NCBI RefSeq assembly: GCF_003609605.1
Contig: NZ_MCHY01000008.1
Coordinates: forward strand, 558,001 to 622,000
Length of the DNA: 64,000 bases
Reading direction: 5' to 3'
Source of the DNA: Ammoniphilus oxalaticus
Lineage (GTDB): Bacteria; Bacillota; Bacilli; Aneurinibacillales; RAOX-1
Part shown: piece after piece, positions 39,236 to 44,239 of the stretch
Layout of the letters: every line of letters starts with the position of its first letter
Numbering within the stretch: the stretch's first letter is position 1
Program-made: the position numbers and the translations under genes
The notes under the pieces: generated by a model
What the model was told of the DNA's origin: nothing
Database searches by the model: none
The model's input: the letters and a program-made list of their open reading frames with translations, nothing else

Positions 39236-39259
39236 CACCATAGTCAAACGCCCTGCATA
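39236..39259 (+). promoter_or_regulatory. upstream sigma-K-like promoter of cotE (repeat copy 1)
   Basis: CACC, a 16-base spacer and CATAGGCTG. The -35/-10 pair fits the sigma-K pattern (AC-containing box and CATAnnnTA). Twenty of 24 bases are repeated exactly 100 bp downstream. Confidence 0.45.
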
Positions 39260-39297
39260 GGCTGTAAGTAAACGTAGATAAACATCTAGGTTTTGCA

Positions 39298-39395: not shown

Positions 39396-39959
39396 ATGCC
39401 GAGTACAGATAAAGAAATGCAGTGCCGTGAGATAATTACAAGAGCGGTCTGTGGAAAAGGTCGAAAGTTTTCTGGACGTAGCCATACCATCACCCCTAAG
39501 CAACCCCCTTCCGAAGTTTTGGGTTGCTGGATCATCAATCACAAATATGAAGCCGATAAAGTGGGTGATGTGATTGAAGTTACGGGTTCATATGATGTGC
39601 AAATTTGGGTTTCTTACAATGACAATACGGATACAGCCGTGATTAAAGAGACGGTCACTTTTGTTGAGAGTGTTCCGCTTTCTTTCTATGATGACAATTG
39701 CCGCGGCAAGCTTGAGGTGTATGCCCAGGCGACCCAACAACCCAATTGTTTAGAAGCGAAGTTGGTCGGCGACGGCAGAGTTGTGGTAAAGGTTGAAACA
39801 GAATACGCTGTAGAGGTCGTAGGCGAAACGAAGTTGTGTGTTGTCATCTGCGATAGTTGTGATGATGATGAAAAAGACTTTGATTTCGGCGGTTTAGACG
39901 ATGTTGAAGAATTTGATGAGCTTGAGTTCGATGAAGACTTTATCGACGACTTAGACTAA
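39396..39959 (+). CDS. cotE: outer spore coat morphogenetic protein CotE
   Basis: 187 residues (181 in B. subtilis). CotE forms the ring on which the outer coat is assembled in the mother cell. Matching stretches are CREIITRAVCGKGRKFS, a central GCWIINHKYEADKVGDVIEV, VWVSY-type strand DVQIWVSYNDNTDTAV, QQPNCLEAKL and VEVVGETKLCVVI. The last 35 residues are very acidic (repeats of Asp/Glu with Phe and Leu), as in Bacillus. GGAGGT precedes ATG. Two promoter-like boxes lie upstream and a terminator follows. Confidence 0.95.
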   Translation: MPSTDKEMQCREIITRAVCGKGRKFSGRSHTITPKQPPSEVLGCWIINHKYEADKVGDVIEVTGSYDVQIWVSYNDNTDTAVIKETVTFVESVPLSFYDDNCRGKLEVYAQATQQPNCLEAKLVGDGRVVVKVETEYAVEVVGETKLCVVICDSCDDDEKDFDFGGLDDVEEFDELEFDEDFIDDLD

Positions 39960-39986: not shown

Positions 39987-40016
39987 AAAGGGAGGAAAAC
40001 ATTCCTCCCTTTTTTA
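39987..40016 (+). terminator. terminator of cotE
   Basis: Perfect 10-bp stem AAAGGGAGGA / TCCTCCCTTT (39987-39996, 40003-40012) and a T-run. Confidence 0.9.
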
Positions 40017-40041
40017 CTTTGATCGGCGACGCTGTTTCGTG

Positions 40042-40065
40042 ACACGCTCTGAATCTAGGCGCATA
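40042..40065 (+). promoter_or_regulatory. possible sigma-K-like promoter of the amidoligase-like gene
   Basis: ACAC (40042-40045), a 16-base spacer and CATATGCTG (from 40062). It has the same spacing and a similar -10 to the boxes before cotE; 64 bases before the start codon. Confidence 0.35.
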
Positions 40066-40128
40066 TGCTGTATGGAGCAAGTTGCAAAGGATCAAGAGAG
40101 TCTTTGCAATGGAGAGAGGAAGAGTATA

Positions 40129-41571
40129 ATGTCTGCATTCCTTTTATATTCAAAGCAAAGCCCACCCCATCCGTTGCTGTCTCACCTAAATATTCCGACC
40201 GGGTCCACATTGTCTAGCGATCATCCTCAAATTGTTATTCAATGGGGAATTGCGCAATTGTCGGCCCAGGATCCAAATATCCACGTTTTGAACGGTGAAG
40301 AGGGGCTACACAATGTTTCAAATCGTAAAATGATGCTTGAGATATTAAGATGGAATGGAATTCAAACGATTCATGAAGAAACATCAGCTTCAAAGATATC
40401 GACGATCCGAAGATATTTTATTCCCGTTTTTCAACAGCAAGAACTTGCCTTGTTCCGCTCCCAGGGTAAAAAGGTTTGGTTGACGAATGAACTCTCAAGC
40501 CATTCATCTGATACGTATGAAGAAATTGAAATCACGCGATCGATTCGCGAAATTCGAAGAATTCTGCAACTAGCAGTCCGTAGTGTGTATTGTTTAGGGC
40601 TTGATTTCGGCGGTGTTTTAATCGGAATCGGTTTGAATGGAACGCTCAATGTAATCGATGTAACGCCAACACCGAAATTAAATCAATCGCTTGCTGAAAA
40701 ATTTGGAAAAGCGTTTGAACAGTATGTAAGGCGATATAAGGACCCAGCTCCAAGTCCCGTCGTGATGGGCGCTGATCCAGAATTTGTATTGCGCAATAAA
40801 TCAACAGGTAAAATGGTCTTAGCGTCCCGTTTTTTTGGCAGAAAAGGACCGGTTGGTTGCGACCAGATCTGGCTAAGAGGCGACCAAACGAGACAAAAGT
40901 TACCGCTCGCCGAATTGCGACCCGAGCCTGCAAGTGAACCGCGTCAGTTAACGTTAAATCTATATCGAACGATGCTGTTAGCCGAGAAAAAAATTGACAA
41001 TGCGTCGATCGAATGGTTAGCCGGGGGGATGCCGATGAAAGGCTATCCGATCGGGGGACACATCCACTTTAGTCAAACGAAAGTAAACTCACACTTTTTA
41101 CGGGCGCTTGATTCGTACTTATGTTTGCCGCTGATGATTATCGAAAATCAACATTCGTTGGGTAGAAGACCGAAATATGGATTTCTAGGGGATTATCGCA
41201 ACCAATTTCATGGCGGATTTGAATACCGTCCGTTGCCGAGTTGGCTCGTTTCGCCGAGAGTGACGAAGGGAACGCTTGCTCTGGCTAAATTAATCGCTGA
41301 ATCCTATCCTCGTTTAAATTTGTTGCCCACTTACTATTCATCGATTCAAGAAGCTTTTTATAAGGGGAACAAAAGAAAGATTTTACAAGCTGTTAAAGCG
41401 AATTGGGTTCATCTCGAGAAATTGGATGACTATCGAACATATAAAAAATATATTGAACCGTTACGGGAGATGATCTTCAATCAGGAGGAATGGAATGAAT
41501 TCGGGGACATCCGTCAGGCGTGGAAGATCCGACCATTTTCCGCAAAAAGAACAATTAGTAATATGATATAA
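40129..41571 (+). CDS. amidoligase-like protein: ATP-grasp-like N-terminus fused to a COOH-NH2 ligase domain
   Basis: 480 residues. The C-terminal half (about 210-450) looks like the COOH-NH2 ligase family related to glutamine synthetase: VMGADPEFVLRNKSTGKMV, LAELRPEPASEPRQL, GMPMKGYPIGGHIHFSQT, and GGFEYRPLPSWLVSP. The Asp/Glu and GHIHFS residues are candidate metal and ATP ligands. The N-terminal part (about 1-205) resembles a shortened ATP-grasp: VSNRKMMLEILRWNGIQTI and VYCLGLDFGGVLIGI, then VIDVTPTPKL where an ATP-grasp usually has an Asn. Such enzymes join a carboxylate to an amine, often in peptide tags or protein modification. ATG 40129 follows GGAGAGAGGA; a frame to 40039 is open but without support. 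Between cotE and mutS, so a spore-coat role is possible. Substrate unknown. Confidence 0.72.
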   Translation: MSAFLLYSKQSPPHPLLSHLNIPTGSTLSSDHPQIVIQWGIAQLSAQDPNIHVLNGEEGLHNVSNRKMMLEILRWNGIQTIHEETSASKISTIRRYFIPVFQQQELALFRSQGKKVWLTNELSSHSSDTYEEIEITRSIREIRRILQLAVRSVYCLGLDFGGVLIGIGLNGTLNVIDVTPTPKLNQSLAEKFGKAFEQYVRRYKDPAPSPVVMGADPEFVLRNKSTGKMVLASRFFGRKGPVGCDQIWLRGDQTRQKLPLAELRPEPASEPRQLTLNLYRTMLLAEKKIDNASIEWLAGGMPMKGYPIGGHIHFSQTKVNSHFLRALDSYLCLPLMIIENQHSLGRRPKYGFLGDYRNQFHGGFEYRPLPSWLVSPRVTKGTLALAKLIAESYPRLNLLPTYYSSIQEAFYKGNKRKILQAVKANWVHLEKLDDYRTYKKYIEPLREMIFNQEEWNEFGDIRQAWKIRPFSAKRTISNMI

Positions 41572-41608: not shown

Positions 41609-44239
41609 ATGGCAAAATACACCCCAATGATAGAACAATATTTATCGATTAAGGCAGATTATCCCGATGCCTTTCTTTTTTTTCGATTAGGGGATTTCTA
41701 TGAACTATTTTTCGAAGATGCGGTGTTAGCCGCAAGAGAATTAGAAATTACGTTAACAGGACGGGGTGGAGGAACGGAGGAACGGATCCCAATGTGCGGC
41801 GTTCCTTACCATTCCGTTGATGCTTATTATGAAGCGCTCCTGAAAAAGGGGTATAAAATTGCGATTTGCGAGCAGGTGGAAGATCCAAAAGATGCAAAAG
41901 GAGTGGTGAAAAGGGAAGTTGTTCGCGTCCTAACGCCTGGCACAGTGATGGAAGGTAAGCTGTTAACTGACCGCGAGCACAATTATCTCGTTGCTGCTTG
42001 GGGAGAGCAACAGCAGTACGCGCTCGCCGCCTGCGATATTACGACAGGTCACTTTTATGGCGCCTGGTTCGATTCAATTGAGCAACTCGTTGGCGAAATT
42101 GCTTCGTATCAACCCAAAGAGGTACTGGTGCCCGAACTGGCGCAAAGCGAGGAGATCAGCAAACAGTGTTCGAACCTTGGCGTTCAGATGATCGAACGTG
42201 TTTCAGAAACAGAGCGAGAAACGTATGGACAGCTGGCGGAGCAACAATTCAGCGTTTCAATTGACAAGCCCCTTTTACGAAATACGGCAGGATTGTTGAT
42301 AGCGTATTTAAGAGAGACGCAACGCTCCACCTTAGAGCACATCCAGGAAATTGAAATTTACGCGGCGCAACAGTACATGTTAATTGACCCATATTCAAAG
42401 CGGAACTTGGAGATCACAGAGTCGTTAATCGAGAAGAAGAAGCAAGGCTCGTTGTTGTGGTATTTAGATCAAACCGTCACTGCGATGGGGGCCCGCATGT
42501 TAAGAATGTGGGTGGACAAGCCGCTCTTAAACCGAAATGATATTGAAAAAAGGCTGGACTCAGTTGGTTTTTTTACAACGCAGTTGTTTGTTCGCGAACA
42601 ATTACGCGATTTTTTAAAGTTGATTTATGACTTGGAAAGAATGTCAGGGCGCATTTCGTTTGGTAACGCCAATGCAAAAGATTTGATCCATTTAAAACAA
42701 TCGTTGGAAGTGGTTCCGAAAATCAAACAAATTTTTGAGGCGGAAACGAATTTGCCACAGGGTGTGAGCGAAAATGTTGCGGAATTGGATTCGTGCCCAG
42801 ACATCGTCGCCTTGATTGGAAAATCAATCGTTGATGATCCGCCGCTTTCCTTGAAAGAGGGCGGTTTGATTAAAGAGGGGTATCATGACCATTTGGATAA
42901 ATTGAAAACAGTCAGTCGAGACGGAAAGCAGTGGATTGCGAATTTGGAGAAAGAAGAGCGGGAAGCAACCGGAATCCGTTCGTTGAAGGTCGGTTACAAC
43001 AGAATATTCGGATACTATATTGAAGTGACGAAATCGAACTTGGCTGCGATTCCAAGTGGACGCTATGAGCGCAAGCAAACACTCGCCAATGCTGAACGTT
43101 TTATTACCCCCGAATTAAAAGAGCAAGAAGGGCTCATTTTGGAAGCTGAAGAAAAATTGACCGAGCTCGAGTATAACTTGTTTATAGAGATCCGTTCGCA
43201 AGTCGCTAGCCACGTGAGACGATTGCAGTCTCTTGCCCATCGGATTGCGCAGTTGGACGTTTTAGCGTCACTAGCTGAAGTCGCTCAAGAGCGTCAACTC
43301 GTTCGTCCCGCGTTTAGCGCTCGTTCCGAATTGGTTATCGTGGAAGGTAGACACCCCGTCGTAGAAAAGGTGTTGGACCGTGACACGCCATTTATCCCGA
43401 ATGACACCGTAATGGATGGCGAAGAAAATCGCCTGTTACTTGTTACGGGGCCGAACATGGCGGGGAAGAGCACGTACATGAGGCAATTGGCTTTAATCGT
43501 GATGATGGCTCAATTGGGAAGTTTTGTGCCCGCAAAAGAGGCTCGTTTATCTGTCGTTGATCAAATTTTTACCCGAATCGGGGCAGCGGATGACCTGGTT
43601 GGCGGGCAGAGCACGTTTATGGTAGAAATGAGCGATATTCAACTGATGACCGCGCGGGCAACGAAAGATAGTCTAGTCATTATTGATGAGATAGGGCGCG
43701 GCACCTCGACGCATGACGGGATGTCGATTGCTCAGGCAGTGATCGAATATGTGCACGATCAGATCGCTTGTCGGGCGTTAGTATCTACTCATTATCATGA
43801 GCTTGCGGTTTTGGAAGAATCGTTGTCTGGCATGAAGAACTACCACATGGCTGTCCAAGAAGAAAAAGATCGCGTTATTTTCTTGCGGAAGTTAAAACGA
43901 GGCGCGACCGATGAAAGCTACGGGATCTATTGCGCTACATTAGCTGGGCTGCCAGAACAAATTATTCAACGAGCGGAGCAGTTGTTAAATCAATATCGTT
44001 TAACTAACCGCTCTACGTCCGAAACAACAGAAAAGCATTCGTCGCAACTAGAAGAGCTCGTACAAGAAAGTTTCCAACTTGGCCTCTTTTCCGAAACAGC
44101 GCCTCCGGAGCAAAAGAGGCAGAAGATAGACAAAGAAACGCAGCAGTTAATTCAATCGTTAAAAGAGGTAGATTTAATTAATATGACGCCGCTGCAAGCG
44201 ATGAACTTCCTGTATGAAATGAAACAAAAGTTAACCTAA
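41609..44239 (+). CDS. mutS: DNA mismatch repair protein MutS
   Basis: Recognises base mismatches and small loops, then recruits MutL. 876 residues. The N-terminal mismatch-binding domain starts MAKYTPMIEQYLSIKADYPDAFLFFRLGDFYELFFEDA with the intercalating Phe-x-Glu (FYEL). The ATPase has Walker A TGPNMAGKSTYMRQ near 611-624, GAADDLVGGQSTFMVEM, DEIGRGTSTHDG and STHYHEL. A C-terminal tail of about 100 residues carries the tetramerisation region. AGGAGAGG precedes ATG; mutL follows closely. Confidence 0.97.
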   Translation: MAKYTPMIEQYLSIKADYPDAFLFFRLGDFYELFFEDAVLAARELEITLTGRGGGTEERIPMCGVPYHSVDAYYEALLKKGYKIAICEQVEDPKDAKGVVKREVVRVLTPGTVMEGKLLTDREHNYLVAAWGEQQQYALAACDITTGHFYGAWFDSIEQLVGEIASYQPKEVLVPELAQSEEISKQCSNLGVQMIERVSETERETYGQLAEQQFSVSIDKPLLRNTAGLLIAYLRETQRSTLEHIQEIEIYAAQQYMLIDPYSKRNLEITESLIEKKKQGSLLWYLDQTVTAMGARMLRMWVDKPLLNRNDIEKRLDSVGFFTTQLFVREQLRDFLKLIYDLERMSGRISFGNANAKDLIHLKQSLEVVPKIKQIFEAETNLPQGVSENVAELDSCPDIVALIGKSIVDDPPLSLKEGGLIKEGYHDHLDKLKTVSRDGKQWIANLEKEEREATGIRSLKVGYNRIFGYYIEVTKSNLAAIPSGRYERKQTLANAERFITPELKEQEGLILEAEEKLTELEYNLFIEIRSQVASHVRRLQSLAHRIAQLDVLASLAEVAQERQLVRPAFSARSELVIVEGRHPVVEKVLDRDTPFIPNDTVMDGEENRLLLVTGPNMAGKSTYMRQLALIVMMAQLGSFVPAKEARLSVVDQIFTRIGAADDLVGGQSTFMVEMSDIQLMTARATKDSLVIIDEIGRGTSTHDGMSIAQAVIEYVHDQIACRALVSTHYHELAVLEESLSGMKNYHMAVQEEKDRVIFLRKLKRGATDESYGIYCATLAGLPEQIIQRAEQLLNQYRLTNRSTSETTEKHSSQLEELVQESFQLGLFSETAPPEQKRQKIDKETQQLIQSLKEVDLINMTPLQAMNFLYEMKQKLT

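Follow-up and report, generated by a model that had tools for sequence, protein, structure and literature searches.

The locus

The window considered here is a stretch of 64,000 nucleotides from Ammoniphilus oxalaticus, and the gene of interest, referred to below as the ligase gene, lies on its forward strand between cotE and mutS. The features of the locus are the following, with positions counted from the first letter of the window.

39396–39959, + strand: cotE, encoding the outer coat morphogenetic protein (PF10628, 230 bits)
39989–40014, + strand: intrinsic-terminator-like hairpin and T run 3' of cotE (sequence read by eye)
40044–40069, + strand: sigma-K-like promoter, AC-N16-CATATGCT (pattern enriched in cotE-adjacent ligase genes)
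40129–41571, + strand: two-domain amidoligase gene, 480 aa (open reading frame and translation; PF14395, 328 bits; same Met start in homologues)
40129–40755, + strand: degenerate RimK/phage-type ATP-grasp domain, aa 1–209 (family profile against phage ATP-grasps, PHROG 2599 and RimK)
40765–41529, + strand: COOH-NH2 ligase (GCS-like) domain, aa 213–467 (PF14395; residues invariant in 61/61 homologues; AlphaFold fold match)
41609–44239, + strand: mutS, a conserved downstream neighbour with no part in the function (open reading frame; order cotE-ligase-mutS-mutL kept)

The reading frame runs from the ATG at 40129 to the stop at 41571. An alternative in-frame GTG lies upstream at 40039; the ATG is the likely start because the closest homologues begin at the equivalent residue. 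A first-pass annotation, made from the letters alone, had placed the gene directly after cotE and its terminator. This placement holds: the upstream frame encodes CotE, and it is followed by a terminator-like hairpin (GGGAGG-AAAACATT-CCTCCC-TTTTTT, about 39989–40014). The motifs on which that annotation relied (LGLDFGG, VIDVTPTPKL, ADPEF, LAELRPEP, GGHIHFS and GGFEYRPLPSW) are all present in the translation. The A. oxalaticus genome also encodes SpoIVA and CotE.

The ligase belongs to a family that is known but uncharacterised. In 2009 Iyer et al. reportedly linked the PF14395 family to YheC/D ATP-grasps and to CotE and suggested a role in the coat, and the Pfam text for the family is reported to do so as well. 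In the literature library searched, no study of the ligase gene was found. The recognition of the N-terminal domain as a decayed ATP-grasp, together with the statistics on promoters and the counts of synteny given below, appears to be additional to this earlier prediction.

The predicted catalytic domain

The C-terminal half of the protein is matched over the full length of PF14395 (COOH-NH2 ligase type 2, phage phiEco32-like; profile 1–254 of 254, aa 213–467), with 328.2 bits against a curated cut-off of 25 bits. With E = 3.8e-98 the match is therefore not a chance one, and the assignment of this half to the amidoligases is borne out. Eight residues, D216, E218, E262, R264, H311, H313, E365 and R367, are invariant in all 61 of the diverse homologues compared; mapped from the GCS fold, they are candidate metal and ATP ligands. 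With these candidates all kept, the active site looks intact.

As for the structure, AlphaFold was given the window protein along with two homologues and ten viral relatives, and its model of the full-length protein is confident across most of aa 210–470. The modelled domain finds its best match in YbdK (Z 16.8, rmsd 3.3, 244 aligned), followed by Dop (Z 15.2), plant glutamate-cysteine ligase (GCL, 15.0), PafA (14.2) and GshF (13.7), in alignments of 3–4 Å across about 240 residues; with YbdK, GCL and GshF the common fold goes with only about 9–15% identity. The model shows the fold of GCS-like carboxylate-amine ligases, which is that of glutamate-cysteine ligase, YbdK and the Pup ligases. The window protein, searched singly against PDB sequences, had found no relative.

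What could such a domain join? One answer is that it ligates small molecules or oligopeptides. In concert with ATP-grasps of the YheC/D type and with MurF-like ligases, it would build a peptide, free or polymeric, that is deposited in the spore or around it and is comparable with the products of GshF or cyanophycin synthetase or with the teichuronopeptides; coat proteins would then not be what it modifies. That YbdK heads the fold matches and that GCL and GshF are among them agrees with this answer, but the protein modifiers PafA and Dop match too, at Z 14–15. It is a reading to be taken seriously, although on balance we lean against it, and it is met again below among the gene neighbours.

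PafA and Dop have a D/E-x-E motif in the first strand, as in the ligase. Tagging of the Pup type was considered and set aside: the window's genome contains no match to Pup (PF05639), so that such tagging by the ligase is unlikely.

The N-terminal domain

The N-terminal half is less easily recognised. No Pfam family matches it, either in the window protein or in the 61 homologues, and Pfam and NCBIfam scans of the domain alone gave nothing usable. Yet a profile built from 46 N-domains matches ATP-grasp proteins, as had been supposed for this half: it covers those of two phages end to end (92 and 54 bits) and finds RimK in the PDB (E = 0.002, two collinear stretches). In the other direction, PHROG 2599, a phage “S6 glutaminyl transferase”, matches 20 of the 46 N-domains (best 1.2e-9). 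These phage RimK-like ATP-grasps, exemplified by gp008 of Pseudomonas phage PA11, are collinear with the N-domain profile at 54–92 bits.

The likeness stops at the catalytic apparatus. In the phage ATP-grasps both the ATP loop and E-V-N (VLEVNTAPG) are preserved, whereas the window protein has D177-V-T179 and some 40 residues fewer. In the last core strand, none of 61 homologues has both residues of Glu-x-Asn, the pair of metal ligands, and 55 of them, the window protein included, lack some 40 residues of the ATP loop or lid (subdomain A). Between the two conserved blocks lie 55–59 residues in the phage proteins and 15 in the window protein; the distance is 31 or fewer in 56/61 homologues and below 30 in 55/61. 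Five homologues from outside the class have kept 53–54 residues between the blocks and have lost E-x-N as well. The profile match to phage ATP-grasps, the lost E-x-N and the loss of the ATP loop together make the domain a decayed ATP-grasp by descent, and to judge from its sequence it is catalytically dead. The earlier remark that the ATP-grasp part is short and lacks the usual Asn is borne out.

Could the domain still be a working ATP-grasp, and the protein bifunctional in the manner of GshF? The end-to-end match to the phage enzymes is what speaks for such an activity, but a domain without Glu-x-Asn in 61/61 homologues, and without the ATP-loop segment in 55/61 including the window protein, is a very improbable catalyst. 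GshF does resemble the ligase in combining a GCS-like domain with an ATP-grasp; its domain order is opposite, and its ATP-grasp is active.

AlphaFold gave pLDDT 39 for the N-domain alone and mostly below 50 for it in the full-length model, and neither was used for this domain; among the model-input sequences it is present only in the window protein, L031 and L032, which leaves the alignment shallow. YheC/D was tried as the nearest relative and rejected: the hhalign match was limited to 28 columns surrounding the last core strand, so that YheC/D is apparently not the closest kin of the N-domain.

Relatives in phages

A tblastn search with the window protein against phages, and a scan of viral contigs with the single protein, found nothing; an alignment-based viral scan and indirect searches did find phage relatives. 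The phage copies of PF14395, together with one plasmid copy, are located outside spore loci, and the domain itself is therefore not spore-specific. Those phage members that were inspected consist of one domain and have a separate ATP-grasp gene nearby, whereas those of spore formers carry a fused, degenerate ATP-grasp. In Zobellviridae phages (L169:1-3651 and L170:1-5619) a module comprises a glutamine amidotransferase, the type-2 COOH-NH2 ligase, a second amidoligase and a RimK-like ATP-grasp.

Distribution and linkage to cotE

The ligase is found almost only in spore formers, and nearly always beside cotE. In a class sample of 300 genomes it occurs in 160, and CotE is encoded in 160/160 of these; another 49 genomes encode CotE and no ligase, and in no genome does the ligase occur without CotE (Fisher 4e-41, a value not corrected for kinship). 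The cotE gene lies upstream, on the same strand and within 5 kb, for 109 of the 113 ligase genes with a listed cotE position; of the other four, three are long fusion paralogues and one (G430) retains mutS as its neighbour. A phylum-wide sample of 299 genomes has the ligase in 37, of which 36 encode SpoIVA and the exception is a genome 61% complete. Orthologues are thus not mainly those of non-sporulating bacteria away from cotE, and the adjacency noted in the first-pass annotation is kept across spore formers. For several relatives that adjoin YheCD genes, among them L087-L094, no neighbouring cotE was recognised. In one genome (L103) two divergent ligase copies flank cotE in the order ligase-cotE-ligase. 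B. subtilis, among the control genomes, has CotE and YheC/D and no ligase; therefore, the ligase is not essential to coat assembly in general.

Does this linkage make CotE the substrate? The first-pass annotation had named the acidic CotE tail as a possible target, and the ligase might add residues to it, or cross-link the protein through glutamate or aspartate side chains. The adjacency (109/113) and the presence of CotE in every ligase-positive genome of the class are what one would expect from direct modification. However, genomes without the ligase encode CotE tails of equal acidity, with a mean of 15.0 acidic residues among the last 32 against 16.4 in genomes that have it, and because of this similarity the tail is not favoured as a specific target. 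Moreover, the direct neighbours of cotE in many families are YheCD genes and not the ligase. We consider direct modification of CotE improbable.

Inherited gene order could partly be the cause of the adjacency. Taken to its end, this thought makes the adjacency inheritance only and gives the ligase a housekeeping role unrelated to the coat; the gene does adjoin mutS-mutL as well in much of the class. Such a role sits badly with the co-occurrence with CotE (160/160, and no ligase in the CotE-lacking genomes of the class sample), with cassettes in other classes that persist beside cotE and away from mutS (L086, L099, L101, L102), and with a sigma-K-like promoter of the ligase gene's own, and we hold it to be decidedly improbable.

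The sigma-K-like promoter

The pattern used for sigma-K-like promoters was AC-N15-17-CATANNNT; in the window the last consensus A is unmatched. It occurs upstream of 12 of the 33 ligase genes lying immediately after cotE, where dinucleotide shuffles lead one to expect 0.28, and upstream of 0/44 of those that closely follow another gene, inside operons. Some of the 12 genes with the pattern are close relatives, and so they do not count as 12 independent cases. The gene cotE itself has the pattern upstream in 17/34 cases, and in the window AC-N17-CATAGGCT precedes it at 39237–39263, with GCATANGCTGTA common to this sigma-K-like sequence and the one before the ligase. A test of the sigma-E consensus showed no enrichment. 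The pattern fits sigma-K-type transcription of the ligase in the mother cell, and the late mother-cell expression that had been proposed for the gene is consistent with it.

Cassettes with YheC and YheD

Gene order was read from gene calls around 40 loci. The order of the window is miaB-ricA-cotE-ligase-mutS-mutL, and another family has miaB-ricA-cotE-YheCD x3-ligase-mutS-mutL at the corresponding site of the chromosome; further arrangements are cotE-YheCD x2-ligase-YheCD and, outside the class, cotE-cotE-YheCD x4-ligase. Cassettes of cotE, one to four YheCD genes and the ligase are not confined to the window's class; other classes of the phylum have them too. Those inserted genes for which a scan was made encode YheC/D ATP-grasps (PF14398) with their catalytic residues intact. 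The two arrangements, with the ligase next to cotE or next to YheCD, cluster strongly on the tree of the ligase, with 8 changes compared with 23.8 after shuffling.

The YheC/YheD proteins are long-known ATP-grasps associated with the spore coat, to which no reaction is known to have been assigned. They have a catalytic fold different from that of the ligase C-domain, with active residues intact, and in the window's genome they are at other loci: all of its 15 PF14398 genes lie elsewhere, five of them in tandem (G000:C8:3676-9966; L141-L144, L146). In B. subtilis, yheC and yheD are regulated by sigma-E and SpoIIID (PMC517825), so that the partners of the ligase in the cotE cassettes have relatives there in the mother-cell regulon, and YheC is listed among coat proteins (PMC7352945).

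Other neighbourhoods recall the synthesis of small molecules or polymers. In the window's own genome a MurF-like ligase gene adjoins a YheC/D ATP-grasp (L148:14-1411). At L118:4601-13012 and L119:7548-15946 a ligase-YheCD fusion of 880–905 aa belongs to a 2-aminoethylphosphonate cluster joined to amide-ligase genes. The families were scanned in L119, where the fusion is followed by a MurF-like ligase, a PEP mutase, a phosphonopyruvate decarboxylase and a nucleotidyltransferase-AEP transaminase fusion; L118 was assigned by the same gene order. Both the MurF-like gene beside YheCD and these side-branch fusions next to MurF-like and 2-aminoethylphosphonate genes count in favour of a builder of free or polymeric peptides. 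The phosphonate neighbourhood, however, belongs to distinct fusion paralogues of 870–924 aa and not to the cotE-linked form.

A proposed function and its implications

Collectively, we think it probable that the ligase is a mother-cell amidoligase that acts in one pathway with YheC/D ATP-grasps and makes or attaches an amide-linked component of the coat or crust. We infer its catalysis, its partnership with YheC/D, its location at the coat and the role of its N-domain. On this reading the enzyme would be sporulation-specific. At the expense of ATP, its C-domain would convert a carboxylate, probably that of a glutamate or aspartate side chain or of a small amino acid, into an activated acyl phosphate, which would then be joined to an amine to give an amide bond. 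In the mother cell the ligase would work alongside ligases of the YheC/YheD ATP-grasp type, and the product would be a component made for, or attached to, the spore coat or crust. The dead ATP-grasp has probably been retained for binding a substrate or a partner.

A wider proposal, speculative and rather doubtful at present, is that in many spore formers other than B. subtilis the coat is decorated or cross-linked by non-ribosomal amide ligation. An amidoligase, several YheC/D ATP-grasps and sometimes MurF-like ligases would take part, the dead ATP-grasp would serve as a module for binding the acceptor or the partner, and the system would be related to the phage-like pair of ATP-grasp and amidoligase.

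A cotE-linked amidoligase that shares cassettes with YheC/D would imply that amide-bond chemistry takes place on or in the coat. It offers a concrete set of enzymes, and lineages beyond B. subtilis (Ammoniphilus-, Brevibacillus- and Paenibacillus-like), in which the amide chemistry of the coat may be sought.
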